Source: Methyloversatilis discipulorum
Lineage (GTDB): Bacteria; Pseudomonadota; Gammaproteobacteria; Burkholderiales; Rhodocyclaceae
Direction of reading: 5' to 3'
NCBI RefSeq assembly: GCF_000527135.1
Contig: NZ_AZUP01000001.1
Coordinates: 3,286,001 to 3,350,000, forward strand
Length of the DNA: 64,000 nucleotides
Position 1 is the stretch's first letter, and each line of letters begins with the position of its first letter. A program made the translations under genes and the position numbers. Positions 37,743-52,061 of this stretch are shown piece after piece. The notes under the pieces were generated by a model that was given only the letters and a program-made list of their open reading frames with translations, had not been told where the DNA came from and searched no databases.

Positions 37743-38927
37743 TCAGCGCGCCGCGATCAGGGCCGCAGCCGCCTGTGCGGCGACGCGGCCTTCGTCGGTC
37801 GGCACGACCCACACTTCGATGCCGCCGTCGCCGGTGTCGATGCGCCTTACCGCGTCGCCGGTGGCCGCGGCGTTGCGTCCGTCATCCACGCGTACGCCCA
37901 TCCACGCGAGCGCGGCGCACACGTCGGCGCGCAGCGTCGCGTCGTGTTCGCCGATGCCGCCGCTGAAGGCGATCAGGTCGAGGCCGCCAATGCAGGCGGC
38001 CATCGCGCCCGCTTCCCGCACGATGCGGTAGGTGAACAGCTCGACCGCCTCGCGCGAAGCCGTGCCGCCGTCGGCGCGCAGCCGGCGCATGTCGGCCGAC
38101 AGGCCGGACACGCCGAGCAGGCCGCTCTGCCGGTACAGCAGTGACTGCAGCCGGTCGTGGTCCCAGCCCTGTTCCATCAGATAGAGCAGCACGCCGGCAT
38201 CGAGCGCGCCGCTGCGTGTGCCCATCATCAGACCGTCCAGTGCAGAGAAGCCCATGGTCGTGGCCTGGCTGCGGCCGCCGACGGCGGCGCACAGACTGGC
38301 ACCGTTGCCGAGGTGGGCCATCAGCACGCGGCCGCTTGCGCGTGGCGAGTGCCGCTGCAGCGTGCCCATGATGTACTGGTAGGACAGGCCGTGAAAGCCG
38401 TAGCGGCGCACGCCGTCGTCGTGCAGTGCGCGCGGCAGCGCGAAGCGGCTGGCCACCTCGGGCAGGTCGGCGTGGAAGGCGGTATCGAAGCAGGCGATCT
38501 GCGGCAGCGTCGGGAAGGCCTCACGGAAAGCGCGGATGCCGGCGACATTGTGCGGCTGGTGCAGCGGCGCCAGCGAATCGAGCCGGCTCAGCCGGGCCAG
38601 GATGTCGTCGGTGACGACGACGCTGTCGCGGAAATCGCGCCCGCCATGAACCACACGGTGCGACACCGCTTCGATCGCCGGGAGGCCGGCTTCGCCGTCC
38701 AGCAGCTCGCGCAGCCCGGCCAGCGCGGCGGTGAAGGGCGCGTCGCTGGCCTCAAGCGAACGCCGGTCGCGCTGACCGTTCAGCGTCCAGCCCATGTCCG
38801 GCGTGCCGCCAGGCTCCAGACCCTGGATGCTGCCGGTGAGCAGGCTGGCCTGCACCTCGCCGTCGCGCAGCGGGTGGATGGAGAACTTCAGCGTGGACGA
38901 GCCGGCGTTGACCGACAGTATGGCCAT
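37743..38927 (-). CDS. ackA: Acetate kinase
   Basis: A 394-residue acetate/propionate kinase interconverting acetyl phosphate plus ADP with acetate plus ATP. Signatures: AILSVNAGSSTLKFSI at the start, SHRVVHGG, CFDTAFHADLPEVASRFALP, RRYGFHGLSYQYI, MAHLGNGASLCAAVGGRS and MGFSALDGLMMGTRSGALD. ATG 38927 lies 14 bases after the stop of the MaoC-Pta fusion gene, preceded by GAGG, so the two are one operon. Together they make a Pta-AckA pathway for acetate excretion or uptake, next to an FNT channel and an acetate-type symporter. Confidence 0.97.
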   Translation of the reverse strand: MAILSVNAGSSTLKFSIHPLRDGEVQASLLTGSIQGLEPGGTPDMGWTLNGQRDRRSLEASDAPFTAALAGLRELLDGEAGLPAIEAVSHRVVHGGRDFRDSVVVTDDILARLSRLDSLAPLHQPHNVAGIRAFREAFPTLPQIACFDTAFHADLPEVASRFALPRALHDDGVRRYGFHGLSYQYIMGTLQRHSPRASGRVLMAHLGNGASLCAAVGGRSQATTMGFSALDGLMMGTRSGALDAGVLLYLMEQGWDHDRLQSLLYRQSGLLGVSGLSADMRRLRADGGTASREAVELFTYRIVREAGAMAACIGGLDLIAFSGGIGEHDATLRADVCAALAWMGVRVDDGRNAAATGDAVRRIDTGDGGIEVWVVPTDEGRVAAQAAAALIAAR

Positions 38928-38941
38928 CGTGCTTGCCTCGC

Positions 38942-40384
38942 TCAGTGTTGCGACCACGCTTCGCGCGGATGGTCGCGACGCGCGTTGTGGGCGGCGAGCA
39001 GCGCCAGCAGTGCTGAGGCGACGCGGGTCATCGGCCCGTCGGCGCGGCTGGTCAGCGCGATCGGCACGCGGGCGCCGAGCACCAGGCCCGAGCCGCTGGC
39101 GCCGCCGAGGTATTCCAGCTGCTTGGCCAGCATGTTGCCGCTCTCCAGATCCGGCACCGCGAGGATGTCGGCATCACCGGCGACCGGCGACTGGATGTGC
39201 TTCACCTGCGCCGCGCGCGCGGAGATGGCGTTGTCGAAAGCCAGCGGACCGTCGAGCAGACCGCCAGTGATCTGGCCGCGGTCGGCCATCTTGCACAGCG
39301 CGGCGGCGTCCAGCGTCGACGGGATGTTCGGATTGACTGTTTCGACCGCCGACAGCACGGCCACCTTGGGCTGCTTCACGCCGAGGATGCGCGCGAAGTC
39401 GATCGCGTTCTGCACGATGTCGACCTTCTCGATCAGCGACGGCCGGATGTTCAGTGCGGCGTCGGTGATCAGCAGCGGCTTGCTGTACAGCGGCACATCG
39501 AAGCGGAACACATGCGACATGCGGCGACCGGTGCGCAGCGCCGGGCGCGACAGCACGGCGTGGATCATTTCGTCGGTGTGCAGGCTGCCCTTCATCAGGA
39601 TGTCGACCTCGCCCGCCGCCGCCATGTCGGCGGCCTTGTCGGCGGCCGCGTGGCTGTGCGGCACGCCAACGATCTCGGCGGCATTGAGGTCGATGCCTGC
39701 TTCGGCCGCGATGTGGCGGATGCGCGCCTCCGGCCCGATCAGTACCGGAATGATCAGGCCGTGGCGGGCGGAGTCCATCGCGCCGCTCAGCGACTCGACG
39801 TCACAGGGATGCACCACGCCGCAGCGCACCGGCGGAATGCCGTCGCCGAGCGCCAGCAGTTCGCGGAAGCGCGCTTCCGGATCGAAAAGCCGGATCTGCG
39901 GTGCGCGCACATGCTCCAGCCGAACCTTCTGCGTCGGCGCCAGCACGCGGGCGGTGCCATGCAGCACACGGTCACCCTTCTGATTAACCACCTGGCAGTC
40001 AAGCTCGACCCGCTTCTTTGCGTCGTCCTTGCTGATCACGGTGGCGGTCACCGCCAGCGTGTCGCCGATGCGCACCGGCTTGGTGAAATGCAGCACCTGT
40101 TCGAGGTAGATGGTGCCGGGGCCGGGGAACTGCGTGCCGAGCAGCGCCGAAATCAGCGCGCCGCCCCACATGCCGTGCGCGATCACGCCGTGGAACAGCG
40201 TTTCCTCGGCGTATTCCGGATTCATGTGGGCCGGGTTGGTGTCGCCGGACACCGCGGCGAAGGCCTGGATGTCGGCCAGCGTCAGCGTGCGCAGCAGGCG
40301 CGCGCTCTGGCCTATCGTCAGTTCGTCGTAGGTGATGTTCTCGATCCACTCGGGTTGCGGCGTGTCGTGCTGTGCGGTGTCCAT
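38942..40384 (-). CDS. Bifunctional MaoC-type enoyl-CoA hydratase / phosphate acetyltransferase
   Basis: A 480-residue fusion. Residues 1-150 are a MaoC hotdog domain with the hydratase signature (FAAVSGDTNPAHMNPEYAEETLFHGVIAHGMWGGALISALLG, with D, H and the downstream serine/glycine positions intact). Residues about 165-475 are a phosphotransacetylase (PTA_PTB) domain with ADKAADMAAAGEVDILMKGSLHTDEMIHAVL and ALAFDNAISARAA-like segments. It would link (R)-3-hydroxyacyl-CoA and enoyl-CoA interconversion with acetyl-CoA/acetyl phosphate exchange. This fusion with downstream ackA and upstream fabI is known from betaproteobacteria, often near polyhydroxyalkanoate genes, though none is in this window. 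Confidence 0.93.
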   Translation of the reverse strand: MDTAQHDTPQPEWIENITYDELTIGQSARLLRTLTLADIQAFAAVSGDTNPAHMNPEYAEETLFHGVIAHGMWGGALISALLGTQFPGPGTIYLEQVLHFTKPVRIGDTLAVTATVISKDDAKKRVELDCQVVNQKGDRVLHGTARVLAPTQKVRLEHVRAPQIRLFDPEARFRELLALGDGIPPVRCGVVHPCDVESLSGAMDSARHGLIIPVLIGPEARIRHIAAEAGIDLNAAEIVGVPHSHAAADKAADMAAAGEVDILMKGSLHTDEMIHAVLSRPALRTGRRMSHVFRFDVPLYSKPLLITDAALNIRPSLIEKVDIVQNAIDFARILGVKQPKVAVLSAVETVNPNIPSTLDAAALCKMADRGQITGGLLDGPLAFDNAISARAAQVKHIQSPVAGDADILAVPDLESGNMLAKQLEYLGGASGSGLVLGARVPIALTSRADGPMTRVASALLALLAAHNARRDHPREAWSQH

Positions 40385-40408
40385 GCGGAAGCCCTGTCGG
40401 ATGGCGGT

Positions 40409-41182
40409 TCAGTCGACGGCGTGATAGCCGGCATCGACGTAGAGAGTCTGCCCGGTCATGCCGGAGGCGGCGTCCGAACACAGGAAGGTGGTCAGCCCGG
40501 CGATTTCTTCCAGCGTGACCAGGCGGCCGAGCGGCGACTTGCGCACGGCGCTGTCCATCAGTTCGTCGAAGTCGGCGATGCCCGAGGCGGCGCGCGTCAG
40601 GATCGGGCCGGGCGACACCGCATGCACGCGGATACCGGCCGGGCCGAGTTCCATCGCCATGTAGCGCACCATGGATTCCAGCGCGGCCTTGACCGGCCCC
40701 ATCAGGCCGTAGTTCGGCACCGCCTCGTCGGCGCCGAGATAGGACATCGTGACCAGGCTGCCGCCAGCGCCCATGTGCGGTGCGCACAGGCGGGCCAGGG
40801 CGGCGAAGCTGTGGCAGGAAATATCCATCGCCCGCGCGAAGCCGGCGCTCGAACTGTCGATCACGCGGCCGTGCAGGTCCTGCAGCGGCGCCCAGGCGAT
40901 CGAGTGGATGACGAAATCGAGGCGACCGAGGTGGTCGATCGTGGCGGCGACCAATGCTTCCAGGTCACCGTCCTTCTCCACGTCGCAGGTAAAGAGCGGC
41001 GACGCGATCCGGTCGGCCAACGGCGCAACGTAGTGCGCCGCCTTGTCATTGAGGCAGGACAGCACCAGATCGGCGCCCTGGGCGTGCGCCGCCTGGGCGC
41101 AGCCCCAGGCAATGCTGCGATCGTTGGCGAGACCGACGACGAGGCCTTTCTTGCCGTAGAGCGGAGGGATGTATGCGGTCAT
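40409..41182 (-). CDS. fabI: Enoyl-ACP reductase (NADH), FabI type
   Basis: A 257-residue SDR-fold enoyl reductase completing each cycle of fatty-acid elongation. Signatures: GKKGLVVGLANDRSIAWGCA at the cofactor site, FVIHSIAWAP, and the catalytic SYLGADEAVPNYGLMGPVKAAL with the Y-x6-K spacing specific to FabI. It ends 24 bases before the MaoC-Pta fusion start, so the three genes (fabI, maoC-pta, ackA) form one operon. Because of this context it may be a second, pathway-specific copy rather than the housekeeping FabI. Confidence 0.93.
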   Translation of the reverse strand: MTAYIPPLYGKKGLVVGLANDRSIAWGCAQAAHAQGADLVLSCLNDKAAHYVAPLADRIASPLFTCDVEKDGDLEALVAATIDHLGRLDFVIHSIAWAPLQDLHGRVIDSSSAGFARAMDISCHSFAALARLCAPHMGAGGSLVTMSYLGADEAVPNYGLMGPVKAALESMVRYMAMELGPAGIRVHAVSPGPILTRAASGIADFDELMDSAVRKSPLGRLVTLEEIAGLTTFLCSDAASGMTGQTLYVDAGYHAVD

Positions 41183-41624
41183 GGCCTTGCCGGAAGCACT
41201 TCGGGTGAACGGGAAACCTTACGCGACCAATCTTACGGCGTTCCTGTTGCACTGCACATGACTTCGGACAAGTGCGCGCGCGGTCGTTCCGTCGGCACGC
41301 CGGACATCTTCGCGGCCGCAAGGTCGCCGTCGCCTCGTCGCATCGATAACAGCGGCCTGCCTGAGGGGAAGAGGGCTGCCTTGATGACGTGCGTATTCCG
41401 CGGCGTATTCGAGGGGTGGCGCGGAACCCAGCGCCGACGCGGCTCGCAGGTTGCGGTGCACAAAAAATAAGCGGCTGCGGGCGGTGCATTTATAAGCTTG
41501 CCGTAAGGTTCGCTCCCTAGCATCCGCCACGCTGCACTCAAGGCGCCCGGGCGCGGGGCTGCCGGACACCATCCGGCAGGCTGGATAAACCGGGTTGTTC
41601 ATAAACACAGGAGGAGGAGTACCC
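41183..41624. other. Divergent intergenic region between fabI and the symporter operon
   Basis: A 442-base gap. Short open frames exist on both strands, but none has a ribosome-binding site or recognisable protein, so I see no gene. An AT-richer patch at about 41460-41515 includes TTTATAAG, a possible -10 element. The last 20 bases carry GGAGGAGGAG, the ribosome-binding site of the DUF4212 gene. Promoters for both divergent operons must lie here. Confidence 0.6.
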
Positions 41625-41879
41625 ATGGACAGTAACAGCCAAGGCTACTGGAAAGCCACGCTGGGACTGCTGACCAGGATCCTGATCATCTGGTTCGCAG
41701 TCTCGTTCGGCGCAGGCATCCTGTTCGCTGACGCACTCAACGGCATCCACCTGGGCGGCTACCCGCTCGGCTTCTGGTTCGCCCAACAGGGTTCGATCTA
41801 CATCTTCATCGCGCTGATTTTCTACTACGCGAAAAAGATGGGTGACATCGACCGCCAGTTCGACGTTCACGAGGATTGA
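41625..41879 (+). CDS. DUF4212 small subunit of a sodium/substrate symporter
   Basis: An 84-residue protein with two membrane helices (about 14-34 and 50-68) and the DUF4212 pattern: YWKATLGLLTRILIIWFAVSFGAGILFAD, then LGGYPLGFWFAQQGSIYIFIALIFYYAKKMGDID. Such proteins always precede a sodium:solute symporter, here 4 bases downstream, and are regarded as its small subunit. ATG 41625 follows an excellent GGAGGAGGAG site; the 10-codon upstream extension is unlikely. Confidence 0.95.
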   Translation: MDSNSQGYWKATLGLLTRILIIWFAVSFGAGILFADALNGIHLGGYPLGFWFAQQGSIYIFIALIFYYAKKMGDIDRQFDVHED

Positions 41880-41883
41880 TCAC

Positions 41884-43689
41884 ATGGACCTTCAAACAAC
41901 CATCTACATCGTTGTCGGTCTGAGCTTCGCGCTCTACATCGGCATCGCCATCTGGGCGCGTGCCGGTTCGACCAGCGAGTTCTACGCCGCCGGCGGCAGC
42001 GTGCATCCGATCACCAACGGCATGGCAACCGCCGCCGACTGGATGTCGGCTGCGTCCTTCATCTCGATGGCCGGCCTGATCGCCAACATGGGTTACGGCG
42101 GCGGCCTCTTCCTGATGGGCTGGACCGGCGGATACGTGCTGCTGGCCATGCTGCTGGCGCCGTACCTGCGCAAGTTCGGCAAGTTCACGGTGCCGCAGTT
42201 CATCGGCGACCGCTTCTACTCGAAGTCGGCCTCGACCGTGGCCGTGATCTGCCTGTTGACCGCCTCGACCACCTACATCATCGGTCAGATGACCGGCGTC
42301 GGTGTGGCGTTCTCGCGCTTCCTGAACGTGTCCAGCGACACCGGTATCTACGTTGGCCAGGCCATCGTGTTCCTGTACGCGGTGTTCGGCGGCATGAAGG
42401 GCATCACCTACACCCAGGTGGCGCAGTACATCGTGCTCATCCTGGCCTACACCATCCCGGCAATCTTCATCTCGCTGCAGTTCACCGGCAACCCGCTCCC
42501 GCAACTGGGTCTGGGCAGCACGCTGAGCGGCACCGACGTGTCGCTGCTGGCCAAGCTCGACCAGGTGGTGACCGAACTGGGCTTCGGCCAATACACGACG
42601 ACCACAGCGGGCTCGACGCTCAACATGTTCGTCTACACCCTGTCGCTGATGATCGGTACCGCCGGTCTGCCGCACGTGATCATGCGCTTCTTCACCGTTC
42701 CGACGGTCAAGGACGCACGCTCGTCGGCCGGCTGGGCGCTGGTGTTCATCGCCATCCTCTACACGACCGCTCCGGCCGTTGCCGCGATGGCCAAGATGAA
42801 CCTGCACGGCACGGTCAATACCGCGGTGAAGACCAATGGCGACCTGTACGCCGTCGAGTCCAGCATCAAGAACGAGGACCGTCCGGACTGGATGAAGCGC
42901 TGGGAAAAGACCGGTCTTCTGAAGTGGGAAGACAAGAACGGCGACGGCCGCATCCAGTACTACGACGACAAGACCAAGAGCGACCAGGCGAAGGCCAAGG
43001 CCGAAGCCGCCGGCTGGAAGGGCAACGAGCTGACGGTGAACGCCGACATCATCGTGCTGGCCAATCCGGAAATCGCGCTGCTGCCGAACTGGGTGATCGC
43101 GCTGGTGGCTGCCGGTGGTCTGGCTGCCGCACTGTCGACCGCTGCCGGTCTGCTGATGGCGATTTCGTCCGCCGTGTCGCATGACCTGGTCAAGGGCGTG
43201 TTCAATCCCAACATCAGTGAGAAGGGCGAACTGCTGGCGGGCAAGATCGCCATGGCGGTGGCCATCGTGATTTCGGGCTATCTCGGTCTGAATCCGCCGG
43301 GCTTCGCGGCAGGTACCGTGGCGCTGGCCTTCGGTATCGCGGCATCGTCGCTGTTCCCGGCCATCATGATGGGCATCTTCTCGAAGAAGATGAACAAGGA
43401 AGGCGCCATCGCCGGCATGCTGGCGGGTCTCGCGGTCACGCTGTTCTATGTGTTCGCGCACAAGGGCATCTTCTTCATCAAGGGCACGGACTTCGTCGAC
43501 ATGATCGGTGGCGCGAATGCCTTCTTCGGCATCACGCCGGAAGCCTTCGGTGCGGTCGGTGCGCTGGTGAACTTCATCGTCGCCTTCCTGGTCGACAAGG
43601 TGACCAAGGAGCCGCCGGAGCACATCCAGCACATGGTCGAATCCGTGCGCATCCCGCGCGGTTCGAAGGTGGTGGACGGCGCTCACTGA
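41884..43689 (+). CDS. Sodium:solute symporter, acetate-type (VC_2705 family), with an EF-hand-like insert
   Basis: A 601-residue SSF transporter with about 13 membrane helices. The first half carries ATAADWMSAASFISMAGLIANMGYGGGLFLMGWTGGYVLLAML, and the core carries GLPHVIMRFFTVPTVKDARSS. Between helices near residues 320-390 there is a polar insert of about 70 residues. It contains DKNGDGRIQYYD at 350-361, an exact match to a 12-residue EF-hand calcium loop. The DUF4212 partner and the adjacent regulatory genes mark it as the acetate or short-carboxylate uptake system of the cluster. ATG 41884 is used because the preceding frame overlaps the DUF4212 gene. A clear terminator follows. Confidence 0.93.
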   Translation: MDLQTTIYIVVGLSFALYIGIAIWARAGSTSEFYAAGGSVHPITNGMATAADWMSAASFISMAGLIANMGYGGGLFLMGWTGGYVLLAMLLAPYLRKFGKFTVPQFIGDRFYSKSASTVAVICLLTASTTYIIGQMTGVGVAFSRFLNVSSDTGIYVGQAIVFLYAVFGGMKGITYTQVAQYIVLILAYTIPAIFISLQFTGNPLPQLGLGSTLSGTDVSLLAKLDQVVTELGFGQYTTTTAGSTLNMFVYTLSLMIGTAGLPHVIMRFFTVPTVKDARSSAGWALVFIAILYTTAPAVAAMAKMNLHGTVNTAVKTNGDLYAVESSIKNEDRPDWMKRWEKTGLLKWEDKNGDGRIQYYDDKTKSDQAKAKAEAAGWKGNELTVNADIIVLANPEIALLPNWVIALVAAGGLAAALSTAAGLLMAISSAVSHDLVKGVFNPNISEKGELLAGKIAMAVAIVISGYLGLNPPGFAAGTVALAFGIAASSLFPAIMMGIFSKKMNKEGAIAGMLAGLAVTLFYVFAHKGIFFIKGTDFVDMIGGANAFFGITPEAFGAVGALVNFIVAFLVDKVTKEPPEHIQHMVESVRIPRGSKVVDGAH

Positions 43690-44200: not shown

Positions 44201-44398
44201 ATGAACACGCCGATCCGTTCGCAGCGACTGATCGGGCTGTTCGCCGCGGCCCTGCTGCTGTTCAACTTCCCGCTGCTGGCACTGTGGGACCGGCACGCGC
44301 TGCTGTTCGGCCTGCCGCTGTTCCCGACCGCGCTGTTCCTGGTGTGGGGTGCGCTGATCGCGCTGCTCGCGCTGGTGATCGAGCGCACGGAGCGCTAG
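44201..44398 (+). CDS. Small two-helix membrane protein, DUF3311-like, paired with symporter-kinase
   Basis: A 65-residue protein with two membrane helices (about 9-29 and 34-58) in a pattern close to DUF3311 (LFNFPLLALWDRHALLFGLPLFPTALFLVWG). DUF3311-type subunits precede SSF transporters. Here the next gene, 2 bases downstream, is an SSF-histidine kinase fusion. By position it resembles CbrX, the small membrane protein encoded just before CbrA in Pseudomonas. ATG 44201 is the natural start; the longer frame overlaps the previous gene. Confidence 0.82.
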   Translation: MNTPIRSQRLIGLFAAALLLFNFPLLALWDRHALLFGLPLFPTALFLVWGALIALLALVIERTER

Positions 44399-44400
44399 CC

Positions 44401-47199
44401 GTGCTGTCTGCGCCGCTGCTGGTCGGTGCGTCCTTCGCCTACCTGCTGCTGCTGTTCGCGGTCGCCTGGTACGGCGACCACCGCGCGCAACAGGGGCGCT
44501 CGGTCATCGACAACGCTTGGGTGTATGCCGCCTCGATGGCGGTCTATTGCACCGCGTGGACCTATTTCGGCAGCGTCGGCCGCGCGTCGACCTCAGGCGT
44601 GTGGTTCCTGCCCATCTATCTCGGCCCGACGCTGGCGATGATTCTGGCCTGGATGGTGGTGCGCAAGATGATCCGCATCGCGCGCAGCTACCGCATCACG
44701 TCGATCGCCGACTTCGTTGCCAGTCGCTACGGCAAGAGCCCGACGTTGGCCGGACTGGTGACGCTGATCACCGTGGTCGGCATCGTTCCGTATATCGCGC
44801 TGCAGCTGAAGGCCATCGCAAGCGGCTACGCGGTGATGACCACGGTGCCGGGCGAGGCGGTCGGCAGCCCGTCCGACTGGTGGCGCGACAGCACGCTCTA
44901 CGTCGCGCTCGCGCTGGCCGGTTTCACCATGGTGTTCGGTACCCGCCACCTCGACACCACCGAACGTCACGAGGGCATGGTGGCGGCCATTGCCTTCGAA
45001 TCGGTGGTGAAGCTGATCGCCTTCATCGCCGTCGGCAGCTTCGTCTGCTGGTCGCTGTTCGACGGCCCGGCCGACCTGTTCGGGCGCGCACTCGACAACC
45101 CGGACCTCGCGCCGCTGCTCGGTCTGGAGCAGCAGGGCCGCCCCTTCGCCTACGAACAGTGGTTCGCGCTGACCGTGCTGTCGATGCTGTCGGTCGTGTT
45201 CCTGCCGCGCCAGTTCCAGGTGATGGTGGTCGAGAATGTGAACGAGCGCCACCTGCGCCGCGCCGTGTGGGTATTCCCGCTCTACCTGCTGCTGATCAAT
45301 GTGTTCGTGCTGCCGATCGCGCTCGGCGGCCTGCTGCACTTCGGCGCCGGCAACATGAATGCGGAGAGCTTCGTGCTGTCGCTGCCGCTCGACCGCGGCT
45401 GGCACGCGCTCGCACTGTTCGCCTTCATCGGCGGGCTGTCGGCGGCGACCGGCATGGTCATCGTCGAAACCACCGCGGTGTCGACCATGGTGTGCAACGA
45501 CCTGGTGATGCCGCTGCTGCTGCGCACCCGTCGCTTCGGCGCCCGCGCCGCCGGTGACCTCACCGGCATCCTGCTCGGCATCCGGCGCGCAGCCATCGTC
45601 GGCGTCATGCTGCTCGGCTACATCTACTTCCACGTCGCCGGCGAGGCCTACGCACTGGTGAGCATCGGCCTGATCAGCTTCGCCGCGGTGGCGCAGTTCG
45701 CGCCGGCCGCGCTCGGTGGCATGTACTGGAAGGGCGGCACTCGCGGCGGCGCGCTCGCCGGGCTGACCGCCGGTTTCGCGCTGTGGGCATGGACGCTGAT
45801 GCTGCCGTCCATCGCCAAGTCCGGCTGGATGGATGCAGGGTTCATCGCGCACGGTCCGTGGGACATCGAGCTGCTGAAGCCGGAACAGCTGTTCGGCCTG
45901 GCCGGCCTCGACAACCTGACGCATTCGCTGTTCTGGAGCCTTCTCGCCAATATCGGCGCCTATGTCGGCGTGTCGCTGTGGCGCACGCCGTCGGCGGCGG
46001 AAACCAGCCAGGCGCTGCTGTTCGTCGATGTGTTCGAACGGACCGAAGGCAGCCGGCCGGTGTTCTGGCGCGGGCGCGCGCAGGTGGCCGACCTGTTGCC
46101 GCTGGTCGCGCGCTTTCTTGGTGCGGCGCGCGCGCAGAAGCTGTTCGAGGACTACGCCGCCGCCAGCGGCGTGGCCGGCGTGGACGAGATCAAGCCGGAT
46201 GCGCGCCTCGTGCAGTTCGTCGAAACCCAGCTCGCCGGCGCCATCGGCAGCGCCTCTGCGCGCGTGATGGTCGCGTCGGTGGTGGAGGAAGAGGCGCTGG
46301 ACCTCGACGACGTGATGCGCATCCTCGACGAAGCGTCGCAGCTTCGCGCGTATTCGCATGCGCTGGAGGAGAAGTCGCAGTCGCTGGAGCGCGCTACCGC
46401 CGAACTGCGCGCCGCCAACGAGCAGCTGAAGAGCCTGGACCGGTTGAAGGACGACTTCATGTCCTCGGTCACGCACGAACTGCGCACGCCGCTGACCTCG
46501 ATCCGCGCACTGTCCGAACTGATGGTGGACGACCCGCAGATGGACACCGCGCAGCGCCAGCACTTCCTCGGCATCGTGGTGGCCGAGACCGAGCGCCTGA
46601 GCCGTCTGGTGAACCAGGTGCTGGACATGGCCAAGATCGAATCCGGCCACGCCGAATGGCATACCGCCGACGTCGATCTGCGGGCGCTGGTGGTGAAGGC
46701 GATCGAAACGACGCACGAGGTGTTCCGCGAGCGCGGCGCCGAAGTGACGCTGGAGGCACCAGCCGCCGTGGCGACGCTGCGGGCCGACCCCGATCGACTC
46801 ACCCAGGTGTTGCTGAACCTGCTGTCCAACGCCGCCAAGTTCGTGCCGCGCGGCAGCGGTCGCATCCACGTGCGCATGCGCAGCGACGAGAGCGGTATCA
46901 CGGTCGAAGTGCGCGACAACGGTCCGGGTGTGCCGGTGGCCGAGCACGCGCTGGTGTTCGAGAAGTTCCGTCAGGGCGGCGACGGGGTGAACCGGCCGCA
47001 GGGCACCGGGCTCGGCCTGCCGATCAGCCGGCAGATCGTCGAGCACTTCGGCGGCAGAATGTGGCTGGAATCTGATGCAGGCCAAGGCGCCTGCTTCGCC
47101 TTCCATCTACCGTGGCAGATACAAGAGGGCCCGAAGGCACCCGACAATCCGACCGCAAACCCCGTGCAGGGCGGACAGCAAGGAGGAGCTCCCCAGTGA
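44401..47199 (+). CDS. Sodium:solute symporter fused to a sensor histidine kinase (CbrA-like)
   Basis: A 932-residue protein. Residues 1-535 form an SSF transporter with about 13 helices (YAASMAVYCTAWTYFGSVG, SIADFVASRYGKS, VFLPRQFQVMVVENVNE, GLSAATGMVIVETTAVSTMVCNDL). A STAC-like linker (about 555-600) and a coiled coil lead to HisKA with H692 (SSVTHELRTPLTSI) and HATPase_c with NLLSNAAKFV, VRDNGPGVPV and GTGLGLPIS. All catalytic boxes are intact. No PAS domain is visible, unlike Pseudomonas CbrA. It starts at GTG 44401, and its stop overlaps the response regulator start by four bases. It probably senses the transported carboxylate and phosphorylates that regulator. Confidence 0.95.
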   Translation: MLSAPLLVGASFAYLLLLFAVAWYGDHRAQQGRSVIDNAWVYAASMAVYCTAWTYFGSVGRASTSGVWFLPIYLGPTLAMILAWMVVRKMIRIARSYRITSIADFVASRYGKSPTLAGLVTLITVVGIVPYIALQLKAIASGYAVMTTVPGEAVGSPSDWWRDSTLYVALALAGFTMVFGTRHLDTTERHEGMVAAIAFESVVKLIAFIAVGSFVCWSLFDGPADLFGRALDNPDLAPLLGLEQQGRPFAYEQWFALTVLSMLSVVFLPRQFQVMVVENVNERHLRRAVWVFPLYLLLINVFVLPIALGGLLHFGAGNMNAESFVLSLPLDRGWHALALFAFIGGLSAATGMVIVETTAVSTMVCNDLVMPLLLRTRRFGARAAGDLTGILLGIRRAAIVGVMLLGYIYFHVAGEAYALVSIGLISFAAVAQFAPAALGGMYWKGGTRGGALAGLTAGFALWAWTLMLPSIAKSGWMDAGFIAHGPWDIELLKPEQLFGLAGLDNLTHSLFWSLLANIGAYVGVSLWRTPSAAETSQALLFVDVFERTEGSRPVFWRGRAQVADLLPLVARFLGAARAQKLFEDYAAASGVAGVDEIKPDARLVQFVETQLAGAIGSASARVMVASVVEEEALDLDDVMRILDEASQLRAYSHALEEKSQSLERATAELRAANEQLKSLDRLKDDFMSSVTHELRTPLTSIRALSELMVDDPQMDTAQRQHFLGIVVAETERLSRLVNQVLDMAKIESGHAEWHTADVDLRALVVKAIETTHEVFRERGAEVTLEAPAAVATLRADPDRLTQVLLNLLSNAAKFVPRGSGRIHVRMRSDESGITVEVRDNGPGVPVAEHALVFEKFRQGGDGVNRPQGTGLGLPISRQIVEHFGGRMWLESDAGQGACFAFHLPWQIQEGPKAPDNPTANPVQGGQQGGAPQ

Positions 47200-47561
47200 G
47201 CAGCAAGATACTGATTGCCGACGACGAGCCGAACATCCTCGTCTCTCTCGAATTCCTGATGAAGCGCGAAGGCTTCGACGTCAGCGTGGCGCGCGACGGC
47301 GTCGAGGCGCTGGCCGCCATCCGCGAACAGCAGCCCGAACTGGTACTGCTCGACGTGATGATGCCCGGCAAGAGCGGCTTCGAAGTGTGTCAGGAAGTGC
47401 GCGCCGACGACGCGCTGCGCGGCGTGCGCATCCTGATGCTGACGGCCAAGGGGCGCGACACCGACGTCGCCAAGGGCCTCGCGCTCGGCGCCGACGCCTA
47501 CATGACCAAACCCTTCTCCACGCGGGAACTGGTGCAGAAGGTGCGCGAGATGCTCGGATGA
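47196..47561 (+). CDS. Single-domain response regulator
   Basis: A 121-residue receiver-only protein with acidic DDE at 9-11, phospho-acceptor D53 (LLDVMMPGKSGF), T84 and K105 (YMTKPFS). No output domain, so it works by protein contact or as a phosphate shuttle. GTG 47196 overlaps the stop of the symporter-kinase gene, with AAGGAGGAG upstream, and its own stop overlaps the next start (ATGA). This coupling binds it to the kinase above and to the pseudokinase-exonuclease below. Confidence 0.95.
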   Translation: MSSKILIADDEPNILVSLEFLMKREGFDVSVARDGVEALAAIREQQPELVLLDVMMPGKSGFEVCQEVRADDALRGVRILMLTAKGRDTDVAKGLALGADAYMTKPFSTRELVQKVREMLG

Positions 47562-49735
47562 ATCCGAACCGCCGTCCCGACCGCCGCTTCTGGCAGGTGC
47601 TGGCGGCGCTGGCCGGCCTGCTGCTGCTGTGGGCGGTGGTGACCTGTCTGCTGCTGCTGTCCACGCTGGACGCCGCCGAACGCGACACCGTGCTGGCCCT
47701 GCTCGGCGGGCGCATGCCGCTGGCGCTGATGACGCTGCTGTTCGTGCTGATGCTGGCCGCGGCCGGGCTGAACCAGCTCTACCGCCGCTACATCGTCGCG
47801 CCGGCGCGGCTGGTGGACGAGGCGCGCATCGTGCTCGGCACCGATGCCGAACGCACGCTGACGCCGCAGGGCGACGCCGAGAATCGTGCGCTGGCCGACG
47901 TCATCGCCGGCTTTGTCGAGCAGCGTGCGCGGCTGCGCGCCGACATCGCCGAACAGGTGCGCGCCGCCAGCCGCAACGTCGAACAGGAACGCAGCCGGCT
48001 CGCCGCGCTGATGTCGGAGCTGACGCAGTCGGTCGTCGTGTGCAATCTCGACGGTCGCATCCTGCTCTACAACAACCGCGCGCGGCTGCAGTTCCGTGCG
48101 CTGTCCGATGCGCCGCGCCTGGCCGACGGCGCCGAACTGATCGGCCTCGGCCGCTCGATCTACACCGTGTTCGACCGCAAACTGGTGGCCCACGCGCTGG
48201 AGAACATCGGCCAGCGCATGCAGCGCGGGGTGGCCAGTCCGTCGGCGCAGTTCGTCACCACCACGCGTGCCGGCCAGCTGCTGCGCGCGCAGATGACGCC
48301 GGTGCGCAGCGGCGACGACGGCGACAGTGCGATCAGCGGCTTCGTGCTGATGCTGGACAACATCACGCGCGACTTCGAGGAGGATTCCGTGCGCGACCGC
48401 CTGCTGCTCGGGCTGACCGAAGGCAGTCGCGCCTCGCTCGCCAATATGCAGGCGGCGATCGACATGCTGGACTACCCCGACCTAGAGCCGTCCATGCGCG
48501 AGCGCTTCCACGGCGTCATCCGCGACGAGGTCGGTGCGATGAGCCAGCGCATCCGCGATCTGGCCGACGAAGCGACGCGCGGTCTGAAGGCGCGCTGGCC
48601 GCTGGAGGACATGCTGGGCGCCGATCTGCTGTCGGCGGCAATGCGCCGCATCGAGGCGGTGAAGGGTCCGCGCGTGCAACTGGACGACATCGACACGACG
48701 CTGTGGCTCAAGGTCGACAGCTTTTCACTGCTGCAGGCGCTGGCCTGTCTGGCCGAGCGGCTGGCCGACGAGTACGACATCCGCGTCGTCATGCTCAGGC
48801 TGGCCGCCGCGCCGCAGGACAACCGCGCCCACCTCGACCTGATCTGGCAGGGTCAGACCATGAGTACCGAAACCGTCATGAGCTGGCAGATGGATGCGAT
48901 GACGGCCGGCGGCGAGCGCTCGCCGCTGTCGGTGCGCGACGTGGTCGAGCGGCACGGCGGCGAGTTCTGGCTGGAACGCGAACGGGTGCGCCACCGCGCC
49001 TTCTTCCGCTTCCTGCTGCCGCTGGCCAGCGAACGCGAACAGCTCGACGTTGCGACCTTCGTGCCGCAGGGCAGCCGGCCCGAGTACTACGACTTCGACC
49101 TGTTCCGCGCCACCGAATCGAGCCGCGAACTGGCCGACCGTCCGCTGACCGAACTGGCCTACACCGTGTTCGACACCGAAACCACCGGCCTGAACCCGGG
49201 CGAGGGCGACGAAATCATCCAGATCGGCGCCGCCCGCGTGGTGAACGGCAAGCTGCTGCGACAGGAAAGTTTCGAACAGCTGGTGGATCCGCAGCGCGGC
49301 ATTCCGGCGGCATCGATCCCGATCCACGGCATCACGCCCGACATGGTGGCCGGCCAGCCGACGATAGACCGCGTGCTGCCCGCCTTCCACACCTTCGCCC
49401 AGGACACCGTGCTGGTCGCCCACAACGCCGCCTTCGACATGCGTTTCCTGCAGCTGAAGGAGGCGCGCACCGGCGTGCGCTTCGAGCAGCCGGTGCTCGA
49501 CACGCTGCTGCTGTCGGCGCTGGTGCACCCGAACCAGGAGTCGCACCGGCTTGAGGCCATCGCCGAGCGCTTCAACATCACCGTGATCGGCCGCCACACC
49601 GCGCTCGGTGACGCCATCGTCACCGCCGAAGTCTTCCTGAAGCTGATACCGCTGCTCGCCGAGAAGGGCATCCACACGCTGGGGCAGGCGATGGAGGCGG
49701 CGCAGGAAACGTATTACGCGCGGATCAAGTACTGA
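47558..49735 (+). CDS. Membrane pseudokinase fused to a DEDDh 3'-5' exonuclease domain
   Basis: A 725-residue fusion. Two membrane helices (about 13-35 and 51-73) are followed by a HAMP-like/coiled segment, a PAS domain (about 145-275) and a kinase-like region (about 282-500). The helix that should carry the HisKA histidine (LLLGLTEGSRASLANM, from residue 282) has none, and the ATPase N and G boxes are not recognisable, so it is probably catalytically dead. Residues 530-720 form an intact DEDDh nuclease related to DNA polymerase III epsilon: D539 and E541 (FDTETTGLNPGEGDEIIQIGA), D627 (AHNAAFDMRFL), H680 and D685 (GRHTALGDAIVTAEVF). It is translationally coupled to the receiver gene. The substrate could be RNA, DNA or a nucleotide signal. 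Confidence 0.93.
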   Translation: MNPNRRPDRRFWQVLAALAGLLLLWAVVTCLLLLSTLDAAERDTVLALLGGRMPLALMTLLFVLMLAAAGLNQLYRRYIVAPARLVDEARIVLGTDAERTLTPQGDAENRALADVIAGFVEQRARLRADIAEQVRAASRNVEQERSRLAALMSELTQSVVVCNLDGRILLYNNRARLQFRALSDAPRLADGAELIGLGRSIYTVFDRKLVAHALENIGQRMQRGVASPSAQFVTTTRAGQLLRAQMTPVRSGDDGDSAISGFVLMLDNITRDFEEDSVRDRLLLGLTEGSRASLANMQAAIDMLDYPDLEPSMRERFHGVIRDEVGAMSQRIRDLADEATRGLKARWPLEDMLGADLLSAAMRRIEAVKGPRVQLDDIDTTLWLKVDSFSLLQALACLAERLADEYDIRVVMLRLAAAPQDNRAHLDLIWQGQTMSTETVMSWQMDAMTAGGERSPLSVRDVVERHGGEFWLERERVRHRAFFRFLLPLASEREQLDVATFVPQGSRPEYYDFDLFRATESSRELADRPLTELAYTVFDTETTGLNPGEGDEIIQIGAARVVNGKLLRQESFEQLVDPQRGIPAASIPIHGITPDMVAGQPTIDRVLPAFHTFAQDTVLVAHNAAFDMRFLQLKEARTGVRFEQPVLDTLLLSALVHPNQESHRLEAIAERFNITVIGRHTALGDAIVTAEVFLKLIPLLAEKGIHTLGQAMEAAQETYYARIKY

Positions 49736-49763: not shown

Positions 49764-50222
49764 TTGAACATTAAGATCGTTGAAGCTAGGAAAGAGCATC
49801 TTGCGGAAGTACTAGATTGGCTCCGGGCCGAGGAGGAGCGGTTCGGTGAAGGCTTTTACTGTCACCGAGATGTAATCGCCTCATCATTTCAGGATGGGGA
49901 AGTCTACTGCGCGCTCAGTGAGGGCGAGGTTGCCGGGTTCGTTGTGCACAACCGAAAACAGATCGGCTCTGCAATAGATCTTCTCGAAGTCAGGCCCGAT
50001 CTGCGTGGGCGCCGCTTTGGCAAGTTGCTAGCCGACGATGTCACCCAACGGTTGTTTGCGATGGGCGCCGAATTCATTGAGGTCAAGTGCGCTCCACGCA
50101 GTTCGGAGGGGTTCTGGCGTACTCGTGGCTTTACGTTGGTCGCAAGTAAATGCAGTTCGTCGTTGGACGCGCCGCTGCTGATCCTTCGTCGCCCCGCGGA
50201 TAGCGGACCTAACCTCGAGTAA
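49764..50222 (+). CDS. GNAT family N-acetyltransferase, low-GC probable insertion
   Basis: A 152-residue acetyltransferase beginning at TTG 49764 (MNIKIVEARKEHLAEVLDWLRAEEERFGEGF) after AGGGAC. The acetyl-CoA motif is VRPDLRGRRFGKLLADDV, and the C-terminal part has APRSSEGFWRTRGFTLV. Base composition differs from its neighbours: two sampled 60-base lines inside it hold 34 and 32 G/C, against 42 and 39 in lines just outside. Codons such as AAG/ATT/CTA are used freely. It separates the exonuclease fusion from the DUF294 gene and is probably a transferred gene. Substrate unknown. Confidence 0.85.
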   Translation: MNIKIVEARKEHLAEVLDWLRAEEERFGEGFYCHRDVIASSFQDGEVYCALSEGEVAGFVVHNRKQIGSAIDLLEVRPDLRGRRFGKLLADDVTQRLFAMGAEFIEVKCAPRSSEGFWRTRGFTLVASKCSSSLDAPLLILRRPADSGPNLE

Positions 50223-50225
50223 CGT

Positions 50226-52061
50226 TCAGAATCGCCCCGCCTGATAGCGCTGCCCGAGCACGTTCTGCAGTGACTGCACGACGCTGAAGGCGTCCTTCAG
50301 CTGGCTGCGTTCGAAGTTCGACAGCTCGTCCGGGCGCAGGAAGTTGTCGGCGTTCAGGCCCGCGGCCAACTGGCGGGCCTGGTGCTGGATGCGCAGCGTG
50401 GCGATGAATTCGAGTGCGTCGCGCAGGTCGCGTGCGGCCTGTTCGCTGATTTCGCCGCTGGCGGCGGCGATGGCCAGACGGTCGTGCGTGTTGACCGCGT
50501 CGTGGCCGCCGGCCAGCGCATAGACGCGCGCGAGGTCGACCACAGGCACGATGCCGTTGTGCTTGAGGTCCAGCGTGCCCTTGTTGTCGCCGCTGCGTAT
50601 CGTCGACAGGCTGCGGAACAGACCCAGCGGTGGCGTGTGGCTCAGCGCATTGCCCACCATGTAGGCGAGGAAGATGCGGTTGTCGCGTGTGTGCGCCAGC
50701 ACGTCGCGGCGCAGTTCGTCGAGCAGCGCGCTCTTGCCGTAGATGGCGCGCAGGTCGAAGAACACGCAGGTGAGCATGAGCGCCTTCGGCTCCGGCTGGT
50801 CCACCCATTTGCGGAAGTACTGCATCCAGCGCGCCTTCGGCTGCCGCCACTGGTCGGTCATCGCCATCATTTCGCCCGGGCAGTGGATGTAGCCGCAGGC
50901 GTCGAGGCCGTCGCATACCCAGGTGGCGAAGGCCTTGAAGTAGTCGCCGTGCAGTGCCGCGTCGTAGCGGTCGTCGATCACCAGGCAGTTGTCCTGATCC
51001 GACTTCGCGGTCTGTTCGCTGCGCGCCTGCGAGCCGGCGGCGACCCACACGTAGTCCACCGGCGCCGGGCCGAATTTCGCCTCGGCCAGCTGCACCAGCC
51101 GGCAGGTGATGGCATCGGTCACCGCGGTGATGATGTGGCCGGTGCTGTAGGCGGTGGCGCCGGCGGCGGCGAGGTTCTGCTGCAGCTGGCGCACGCGCGA
51201 GGCGGCGGCGGCCAGTCCTTCGACGGTGGTCTGCTTGTAGATGTCGCCGGCCAGATAGACGGCCGAGGTGCTGTGCTGTTCGGTCAGGTCGGTGGCGGTG
51301 ATCATGCCGGCCACGCGATCACCGTCCACCACCGGCACGTGGTGGATGTTGTGGCGCGCCATCAGCAGCAGCGCGTCGAAGGCGGGCTTGCGCACGTCCA
51401 TCGTCATCGGTGCGACGGTGGCGATGTCGATCACCGGGCGCTCGATGTCCAGCCCCTGGGCGACGGCGCGGTTGCGCAGGTCGCGGTCGGTCACCAGGCC
51501 GTAAAGATGGCCGGCTTCGTCGACGATGAGCACCGAGGACACGCGCTGTTCGCGCATCAGTTGCGCCGCCGCGCGTATGGTGGTGTCCGGTGCCAGCGTG
51601 ATCGGCGCGCGCTTGACCAGTGCCCGCACCGGTGTTGTCATCAGGTTCAGGTGCGGGTCGCTGCTGCGCGGCGCGGCGCCGGGGCTGCCGCCCGGCACGA
51701 TGAAGGCGCGCAGCGCCGGGTGGGCGGCGCAGGCGGCGTCGATGTCGGCGGCGGCGAAGCGGGCGACCGTGGCACCGCGGTCGGCGCGCACAGTCCACGG
51801 CTCCGGTACGCGGGCGGCGGTGCCGTAACCGAACAGTTCGCCCGGCGCGAGCGCGACGCGCCCACCGTGGTCGGCATCGATCAGGTCGATGTGGCCGTCG
51901 AGCAGCAGGTAGAGCGCGTCGGCATCGACCGCCGCCTCGCCGTCGAGGGCGACGACACGGGCAGCAGCGGCCAGCGCGTCGCGGGCGCTGTCGTCCAGCA
52001 AGGCAAGGGCGCGCTGCGTCGGCAGTGCGTTACGCAGGCGCATCTCGTAGGAATCGGTCAT
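50226..52061 (-). CDS. cNMP-binding/CBS/DUF294 nucleotidyltransferase-like protein
   Basis: A 611-residue cytoplasmic protein. Residues 10-130 are a cyclic-nucleotide-binding-like fold, about 145-265 hold two CBS domains (MREQRVSSVLIVDEAGHLYGLVTDRDLRNR; ARHNIHHVPVVDGDRVAGMITATDL), and from about 290 there is a DUF294 domain. Its motif GSQARSEQTAKSDQDN at 343-358 matches GlnD-type nucleotidyltransferases, with D355 and D357 as metal-binding aspartates. A C-terminal helical substrate-binding DUF294_C follows. Such proteins commonly accompany acetate-type symporters and DEDDh exonucleases. It converges on the low-GC acetyltransferase. CBS and cNMP domains suggest control by adenine nucleotides. 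The nucleotide acceptor is unknown. Confidence 0.92.
   Translation of the reverse strand: MTDSYEMRLRNALPTQRALALLDDSARDALAAAARVVALDGEAAVDADALYLLLDGHIDLIDADHGGRVALAPGELFGYGTAARVPEPWTVRADRGATVARFAAADIDAACAAHPALRAFIVPGGSPGAAPRSSDPHLNLMTTPVRALVKRAPITLAPDTTIRAAAQLMREQRVSSVLIVDEAGHLYGLVTDRDLRNRAVAQGLDIERPVIDIATVAPMTMDVRKPAFDALLLMARHNIHHVPVVDGDRVAGMITATDLTEQHSTSAVYLAGDIYKQTTVEGLAAAASRVRQLQQNLAAAGATAYSTGHIITAVTDAITCRLVQLAEAKFGPAPVDYVWVAAGSQARSEQTAKSDQDNCLVIDDRYDAALHGDYFKAFATWVCDGLDACGYIHCPGEMMAMTDQWRQPKARWMQYFRKWVDQPEPKALMLTCVFFDLRAIYGKSALLDELRRDVLAHTRDNRIFLAYMVGNALSHTPPLGLFRSLSTIRSGDNKGTLDLKHNGIVPVVDLARVYALAGGHDAVNTHDRLAIAAASGEISEQAARDLRDALEFIATLRIQHQARQLAAGLNADNFLRPDELSNFERSQLKDAFSVVQSLQNVLGQRYQAGRF

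Follow-up and report, generated by a model that had tools for sequence, protein, structure and literature searches.

The window considered here is a stretch of 64,000 nucleotides from Methyloversatilis discipulorum (assembly GCF_000527135.1, contig NZ_AZUP01000001.1, positions 3,286,001 to 3,350,000), whose genome of 4.3 Mb is in one contig. Its gene of interest encodes a pseudokinase-nuclease, termed PK-Exo, in which a membrane-anchored and degenerate histidine kinase core is followed by a DEDDh nuclease domain. Comparison of genomes appears to tie this nuclease most tightly to a nearby nucleotidyltransferase of the DUF294 type rather than to the two-component genes that precede it, a partnership absent from the initial annotation of this DNA. 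The features concerned are as follows (positions in the window; L and G numbers in the text are our handles for loci and genomes).

44401-47199, + strand: SLC5-STAC histidine kinase (CbrA/CrbS-type transceptor) with intact boxes, from a PDB 10ed_A match, HisKA and HATPase_c; start approximate.
47196-47561, + strand: single-domain response regulator (the receiver), 121 aa, phosphorylation site Asp53 (PF00072, 100.1 bits).
47558-49735, + strand: PK-Exo, 725 aa, with membrane helices, PAS, pseudo-DHp, pseudo-CA and DEDDh nuclease in that order, from translation, homologues and an AlphaFold model.
47591-47776, + strand: two predicted membrane helices, residues ~12-36 and 51-73, from hydrophobic segments read from the sequence and helices in the model.
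48008-48373, + strand: PAS domain, residues ~151-272, from PAS_4 (E 0.01), family matches and column conservation.
48374-48592, + strand: pseudo-DHp, residues ~273-345, with Glu288 (codon 48419-48421) in place of the phospho-acceptor His, from hhalign to the partner kinase and 119 relatives.
48593-49033, + strand: pseudo-CA, residues ~346-492, with N-box Asn replaced, G1 Asp changed to Trp430 and the GxG lid motif missing.
49145-49657, + strand: DEDDh nuclease domain (PF00929), residues ~530-700, with D539, E541, D627, H680 and D685.
50226-52061, - strand: CBS-DUF294 nucleotidyltransferase, 611 aa, the proposed functional partner (PF03445, PF10335, CBS).

The architecture of PK-Exo is practically certain. 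The frame has no internal stop, and 77 of 81 extracted homologues (80 loci from a scan of genome_contigs and the window's own copy) are uninterrupted and 700 aa or longer; among the other four, L068 has masked bases, the frame of L079 stops after 381 aa, and L083 and L084 are short with matches that start at or near a contig end. This bears out the proposal of the initial annotation that a single gene makes a single protein, as opposed to two or a frameshifted product; the fusion is conserved. The two membrane helices that it proposed, which hydrophobic segments in the sequence also predict, have counterparts in two long N-terminal helices of the AlphaFold model (mean predicted local distance difference test, pLDDT, 81; predicted template modelling score 0.38), which places them at 9-36 and 39-94 and has a further long helix, 107-153, running into a predicted PAS fold. 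PAS_4 is below threshold in PK-Exo itself (E 0.01) and is matched at E <= 0.01 by 33 of 64 family members, and in the 77 homologues 34% of columns 151-275 are at least 97% conserved, so that the PAS claim too is sustained. Beyond it the model has DHp helices at 270-304 and 311-339, a CA-like domain at ~350-489, a segment of low confidence at 493-509, and then the nuclease. The only Pfam families above cut-off are those of the nuclease, PF00929 (129.9 bits against a cut-off of 24) and PF13482. Its five DEDDh residues, assigned from the start to an epsilon-type nuclease, are where they were said to be, and all five are present in 116 of 119 relatives (600-800 aa proteins from loci L001-L142), pointing to intact catalytic motifs.

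Relatives are widespread. At least 577 stretches in genome_contigs encode one, and the best 80 that were kept are, by record title, mostly from betaproteobacteria with Colwellia and Thiothrix-type gammaproteobacteria in addition; among these 80 the closest named relatives are from Methyloversatilis, and a 98% identical protein is encoded in a metagenome-assembled genome of M. discipulorum. In an even sample of 276 genomes from the class, 16 have matches that span PAS to nuclease, and in an order sample of 399 genomes a match at E <= 1e-60 occurs in 31, some of them partial (those in G347, G373 and G375 cover the nuclease domain alone). Two genomes, G060 and G178 (L087, L088 and second matches), have two PK-Exo paralogues each, the second of which adjoins an SLC5 kinase.

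The kinase core was missed by Pfam, with HisKA and HATPase_c absent from the 12 families that the 64 family members match between them, and so profile-profile comparison was used instead. Region 275-492 matched the neighbouring kinase with a probability of 97.4% (hhalign, E 1.2e-11; shuffled and reversed controls 0.2%). As a structural search with the whole model gave nuclease matches only among the 50 matches listed, the kinase region was also folded and compared separately, and when folded alone the block 346-490 is predicted with pLDDT 83-96. On profile alignment and predicted fold, region 275-492 is a histidine kinase core (DHp-CA fold) that is diverged and not intact. The 119 relatives have at position 288 Glu in 101, Asp in 6, Gln in 5, Arg in 4, Ala in 2 and Val in 1, and in none of them His; position 401, where the alignment to the partner kinase places the N-box Asn, is Arg in 100; position 430, that of the G1 Asp, is Trp in all 119; and none has GxG between residues 440 and 470. 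R291 is kept in 118, and D427, H466 and R484 are conserved alongside the invariant W430. Because the degenerate residues are themselves conserved, the degeneration is more than chance. The initial annotation had described a kinase-like region devoid of phospho-acceptor histidine and ATP boxes, had suggested that alignment to histidine kinase profiles might instead reveal an intact if diverged kinase, and had looked to homologues for whether the decay is conserved; the fold is there, the boxes are gone in PK-Exo and in its family, and the proposal of a pseudokinase is not refuted.

What ties the nuclease to DUF294 is its distribution. The DUF294 gene of the window ends ~0.5 kb downstream of PK-Exo on the opposite strand, and its product has the motif GSQARSEQTAKSDQD at residue 343 and a sub-threshold cNMP-binding match at its N-terminus. 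Six of the next eight nuclease matches listed outside the PK-Exo family (L097, L098, L102, L103, L104 and L106; not L105 or L107) adjoin or are fused to DUF294, and the strong DUF294 loci of the 276-genome class sample were therefore fetched and scanned with profiles built for the nuclease, DUF294, the receiver and the SLC5 kinase. Omission of weak places at E ~1e-9 drops 3 of 81 DUF294-positive genomes and leaves 105 frames in 78 genomes. For 72 of the 105, a DEDDh domain is encoded no more than 500 nt away or forms part of the frame itself, PK-Exo being that neighbour in 2, and a DEDDh nuclease other than PK-Exo is beside or fused to DUF294 in 70 (4 fused, 69 on the same strand). DUF294 is present in all 13 genomes that have a PK-Exo with intact nuclease as against 65 of 263 others (Fisher test, which ignores shared ancestry, 3e-8), and a separate DUF294-adjacent nuclease is present in 1 of those 13 as against 62 of the 65 other DUF294 genomes (1.3e-10), the three that have neither being G030, G099 and G124. 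The co-occurrence recurs in the order sample, with DUF294 in 29 of 31 PK-Exo-match genomes and 153 of 368 others, or 27 of 27 and 137 of 319 (5e-10) once the sample is restricted to genomes with completeness of 90% or more and contamination of 5% or less.

Three relatives with a broken nuclease were found, L099, L100 and L101 (genomes G170, G259 and G047, all of one genus), which at ~27% identity have the same layout with the nuclease residues lost, so that both catalytic units look dead. None of their host genomes is among the 81 DUF294-positive ones, and none has a DUF294 match at E <= 1e-8. Two further observations concern DUF294 itself. The window's own genome has a second DUF294 gene (L252, G000:C1:530606-543010) with no nuclease in the fetched stretch, near frames that match the kinase and receiver profiles weakly. 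In L248, L259, L262 and L263 (L248 is L104 and L259 is L102) a single frame encodes CBS-DUF294 with a nuclease domain at its N-terminus, and one of the four failed a simple nuclease motif test.

In a midpoint-rooted tree of 106 nuclease domains, those of PK-Exo, the four DUF294-fused domains and one kinase-less PAS-nuclease form one group (support 93/93). The simple nuclease and PK-Exo are assigned to different DEDDh lineages because 63 of the 66 simple adjacent nucleases branch in other parts of the tree. One nuclease that stands alone next to DUF294 (L098/L244) is nested within the PK-Exo group (99/92), a position consistent with loss of the receptor part. In a tree of the 105 DUF294 frames, those from PK-Exo genomes are interspersed with frames that have a simple nuclease; the sister of the window's own frame is L207 (100/94), next to which such a nuclease is encoded. 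For the DUF294s of PK-Exo genomes that lack an adjacent simple nuclease there are 12 label changes, of which at least 9 are forced by well-supported branches, and since some involve second DUF294 copies the 9 are not a count of displacements. This pattern suggests that PK-Exo, or its spread, repeatedly displaced a simple nuclease of another lineage, and very probably PK-Exo replaces the partner nuclease of DUF294.

Upstream, the kinase, receiver and PK-Exo genes are consecutive with 4-nt overlaps, first GTGA, where the GTG start of the receiver overlaps the kinase stop, and then ATGA, where the receiver stop overlaps the PK-Exo start. The transporter-STAC part of the kinase was identified through a PDB search (10ed_A, E 9.9e-77), as its SLC5 domain has no Pfam match; passages of PMC13022988 give 10ed as the SLC5-STAC part of CbrA with CbrX. 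Its H, N, G1 and G2 boxes are intact in 64 of 64 homologues. The receiver has PF00072 as sole family above cut-off, and in 101 homologues its residues D9, D10, D53 and K105 each reach 97% conservation or more. A receiver gene lies within 600 nt of PK-Exo in 101 of the 119 relatives, so that the conserved upstream receiver first noted in the window holds for the family, with the 4-nt overlap shared in 60 of the 101; an SLC5 kinase is in the fetched stretch in 96 of 119 and, genome-wide at E <= 1e-100, in 12 of 17 searched genomes with intact-nuclease PK-Exo.

That the dead kinase core is a docking site for the receiver is moderately probable, by analogy with the pseudokinase DivL and its receiver DivK discussed below. 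In a small, mixed and post hoc comparison, with broken-nuclease relatives left out, DHp conservation over 8 columns is 0.73 in 15 receiver-less relatives and 0.80 in 15 divergence-matched receiver-bearing ones. The DHp is the sole region of six that is less conserved in the receiver-less set, the N-terminus, PAS, CA and nuclease showing the opposite and the linker being equal. A299 is kept in 9 receiver-less and 14 receiver-bearing relatives, and A300 in 11 and 15; W471 in the CA also drops, from 14 to 5. This is suggestive and, as far as alignments go, would fit receiver docking.

The mechanism proposed is that the SLC5-STAC kinase would sense a solute and phosphorylate the receiver, as gene order and intact motifs would have it, and that the receiver would then bind the pseudo-DHp of PK-Exo, which would read the state of the receiver and make no phosphate itself, like DivL with DivK. 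The receiver signal and a PAS signal would together bring the attached nuclease into another pose or dimer state, and this enzyme, assigned from motifs, would remove nucleotides that DUF294 attaches to a target, writer and eraser setting a reversible mark. To the reading of PK-Exo as a membrane-anchored, two-component-controlled form of the DEDDh partner nuclease of DUF294, working as DivL does with DivK, we give a probability of roughly one half. Whether the nuclease erases the product of DUF294 is evenly balanced, and the DUF294-nuclease pair may be under control of a nutrient-sensing circuit.

Several observations weigh against this reading. The Fisher tests ignore shared ancestry, there are just 13 PK-Exo genomes, and all 3 nuclease-dead genomes come from a single genus; one of the 13, G128, has both nuclease forms. 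DUF294 is missing from 2 of the 31 order-sample genomes (G347 and G396, 85-87% complete). Tight physical linkage is also disfavored: of the 57 genome_contigs loci flanked by 3.5 kb or more on both sides, 20 have no such gene within 8 kb, as far as the fetched stretch extends. The nuclease tree places 8 dnaQ-type controls (97/71) as the group next to PK-Exo, the 63 simple nucleases being farther away than these. The SLC5 kinase was not found genome-wide in 5 of the 17 genomes with intact PK-Exo (nor in the three broken-nuclease genomes, G236 or G109, among 22 genomes searched overall). The 18 relatives of 119 without an adjacent receiver are also without the kinase in the fetched stretch, some contigs ending there, yet keep the pseudokinase. 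One of the 8 DHp columns, R331, is reversed, being kept in 13 receiver-less and 7 receiver-bearing relatives. A covariation analysis of the receiver with the pseudo-DHp (96-101 pairs, effective number 44-61) yielded nothing interpretable, the kinase-receiver positive control lacking its expected interface and a PAS control region scoring about equally. The suggestion of the initial annotation that the kinase shell may have been kept as a docking or conformational module for the receiver is compatible with adjacency, gene overlap, the DHp comparison and the DivL/DivK precedent.

As to the mark, it may be a nucleotide on protein, which DUF294 would attach and the DEDDh domain remove, gated at the membrane by the receiver-reading dead kinase, a proposal that in this full form is unlikely. 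De-nucleotidylation by a DEDDh enzyme is plausible because such enzymes cleave p-nitrophenyl-TMP (TMP, thymidine monophosphate), a phenol ester of a 5′-nucleotide that resembles nucleotidyl-tyrosine. Work by Hamdan in 2002 reportedly established this for epsilon. It is described for a DEDD-family oligoribonuclease in passages of PMC6390093. The same partnership could have another substrate, with DUF294 tailing RNA 3′ ends, or making an oligonucleotide signal, and the nuclease trimming under membrane control; this is a tentative alternative, and rather doubtful, since the predicted role of a DUF294-type protein in P. fluorescens is regulation of proteins through nucleotidylation (passages of PMC5715377), DUF294_C is grouped with GlnD/GlnE-type domains (passages of PMC3710099), and a membrane anchor was judged unusual for general RNA trimming. 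The passages of PMC5715377 also report no phenotype for a mutant of pflu5625, the DUF294-type gene of P. fluorescens, a further point on the adverse side for a DUF294-centred function.

The pseudokinase could instead be a passive dimerization linker, with PAS alone regulating the nuclease and the receiver acting elsewhere. This would account for its retention in the 18 relatives without an adjacent receiver, and there is a natural kinase-less version near a DUF294 gene (L097/L194), made up of membrane helices, PAS and nuclease. A mere linker is an unlikely explanation for columns as fixed as W430 and R291, for a DHp that is the one region less conserved where the receiver is lacking, and for the 4-nt overlap of the receiver and PK-Exo genes in 60 of 101.

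It is quite improbable that the nuclease acts on DNA in repair or proofreading, tethered to a membrane sensor, with DUF294 merely a co-regulated neighbor. Public annotations do name DNA polymerase III epsilon, and the domain resembles epsilon and PolC, in keeping with the placing of the dnaQ-type controls. Against this, identity as epsilon was rejected, as PK-Exo scores 111.6 bits where the TIGR01406 cut-off is 222.7 and the genome has a separate dnaQ at 297.6 bits, and a DNA role leaves unexplained both the complementary distribution with the DUF294-adjacent nuclease and the decay of the nuclease in genomes without DUF294. Anti-phage defence was also considered and set aside: PK-Exo has PADLOC matches in its DEDDh domain only, and the matches for the receiver and for DUF294 are weak. 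A kinase core that is alive through an unconventional acceptor or nucleotide site, such as Glu288 or one based on Trp430, would suit the well-predicted CA fold and the conservation of W430, D427, H466 and R484, and is very improbable given that the family shows replacement or absence of the Asn, DxG and GxG boxes while the partner kinase keeps its own.

Among the surrounding genes, a GNAT acetyltransferase lies between PK-Exo and DUF294 (49764-50222; third-position GC 0.61, lower than its neighbors) and was rejected as part of the system, as among 84 loci it is beside PK-Exo solely in the window's copy, L001. A small hydrophobic frame of ~65 aa in the frame list, at 44201-44398, runs up to the SLC5 kinase start, a placement like that of CbrX before CbrA. 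Further upstream, at 37743-43689, are genes for acetate kinase, a phosphate acetyltransferase-like protein and a VC_2705-family sodium/solute symporter, hinting at an acetate or short-acid context; the SSF gene at 41842-43689 was considered as ActP and does not reach the ActP cut-offs, being above that for the VC_2705-family symporter.

A likely partner has thereby been named for a widespread protein annotated merely as an exonuclease, and for the little-characterized DUF294 nucleotidyltransferases. If the preferred reading of PK-Exo is right, the end point of two-component signaling would here be the enzymatic editing of a nucleotide mark and not transcription; and PK-Exo would be, beside DivL, another kinase shell turned receiver sensor. 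The replacement pattern predicts that the simple nuclease and PK-Exo would partially complement each other, and only with DUF294 present.

With regard to known systems, the likeness to DnaQ, or DNA polymerase III epsilon, is in the DEDDh fold and active-site residues, PK-Exo being below the epsilon family cut-off in a genome with its own dnaQ. The ordinary DUF294 and DnaQ-like pair has a small separate nuclease, whereas in PK-Exo a membrane pseudokinase carries it as a C-terminal domain. A DUF294-dnaQ operon is given in a table footnote for Bacilli (passages of PMC3412718); beyond this footnote the open-licence passages found contain no description of PK-Exo or of the DUF294 partnership, and none of them establishes a function for the DUF294-nuclease pair. 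The parts are known, namely pseudokinase with receiver, SLC5-STAC kinases and the DUF294-dnaQ neighborhood, and neither their combination in one protein nor the pattern of replacement turned up in the literature searched.

In its SLC5-STAC architecture the upstream kinase matches the kinases of CrbS/CrbR and CbrA/CbrB. A CrbS/CrbR system is characterized by a DNA-binding response regulator, whereas the receiver here has no DNA-binding domain in its 121 aa and is followed by PK-Exo. In the passages available, CrbS/R of P. fluorescens controls the cNMP-CBS-nucleotidyltransferase protein Pflu5625 (PMC5715377) and the CBS-domain gene PP_0354 of P. putida is upregulated on acetate (PMC8402216), and word searches in three of the papers on these systems found no mention of a nuclease, exonuclease or 'polymerase III', as did a search of PMC5436829 for 'nuclease'.

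The likeness in signaling logic is to DivL and DivK of Caulobacter, a pseudo-histidine kinase with a single-domain receiver, the adjacency of receiver and PK-Exo genes in 101 of 119 relatives not being a defining trait of DivL. The acceptor position is Tyr in DivL and mostly Glu in PK-Exo. DivL acts on the kinase CckA, and to our knowledge no enzymatic output domain is known on it, whereas the output of PK-Exo is a nuclease; the kinship compared is that of the histidine kinase fold. According to the passages available, the dead kinase core of DivL senses the phosphorylation state of a receiver (PMC4211667; PMC9430884), and Rhodobacterales without DivK have a short DivL that lacks the kinase part (PMC9430884).

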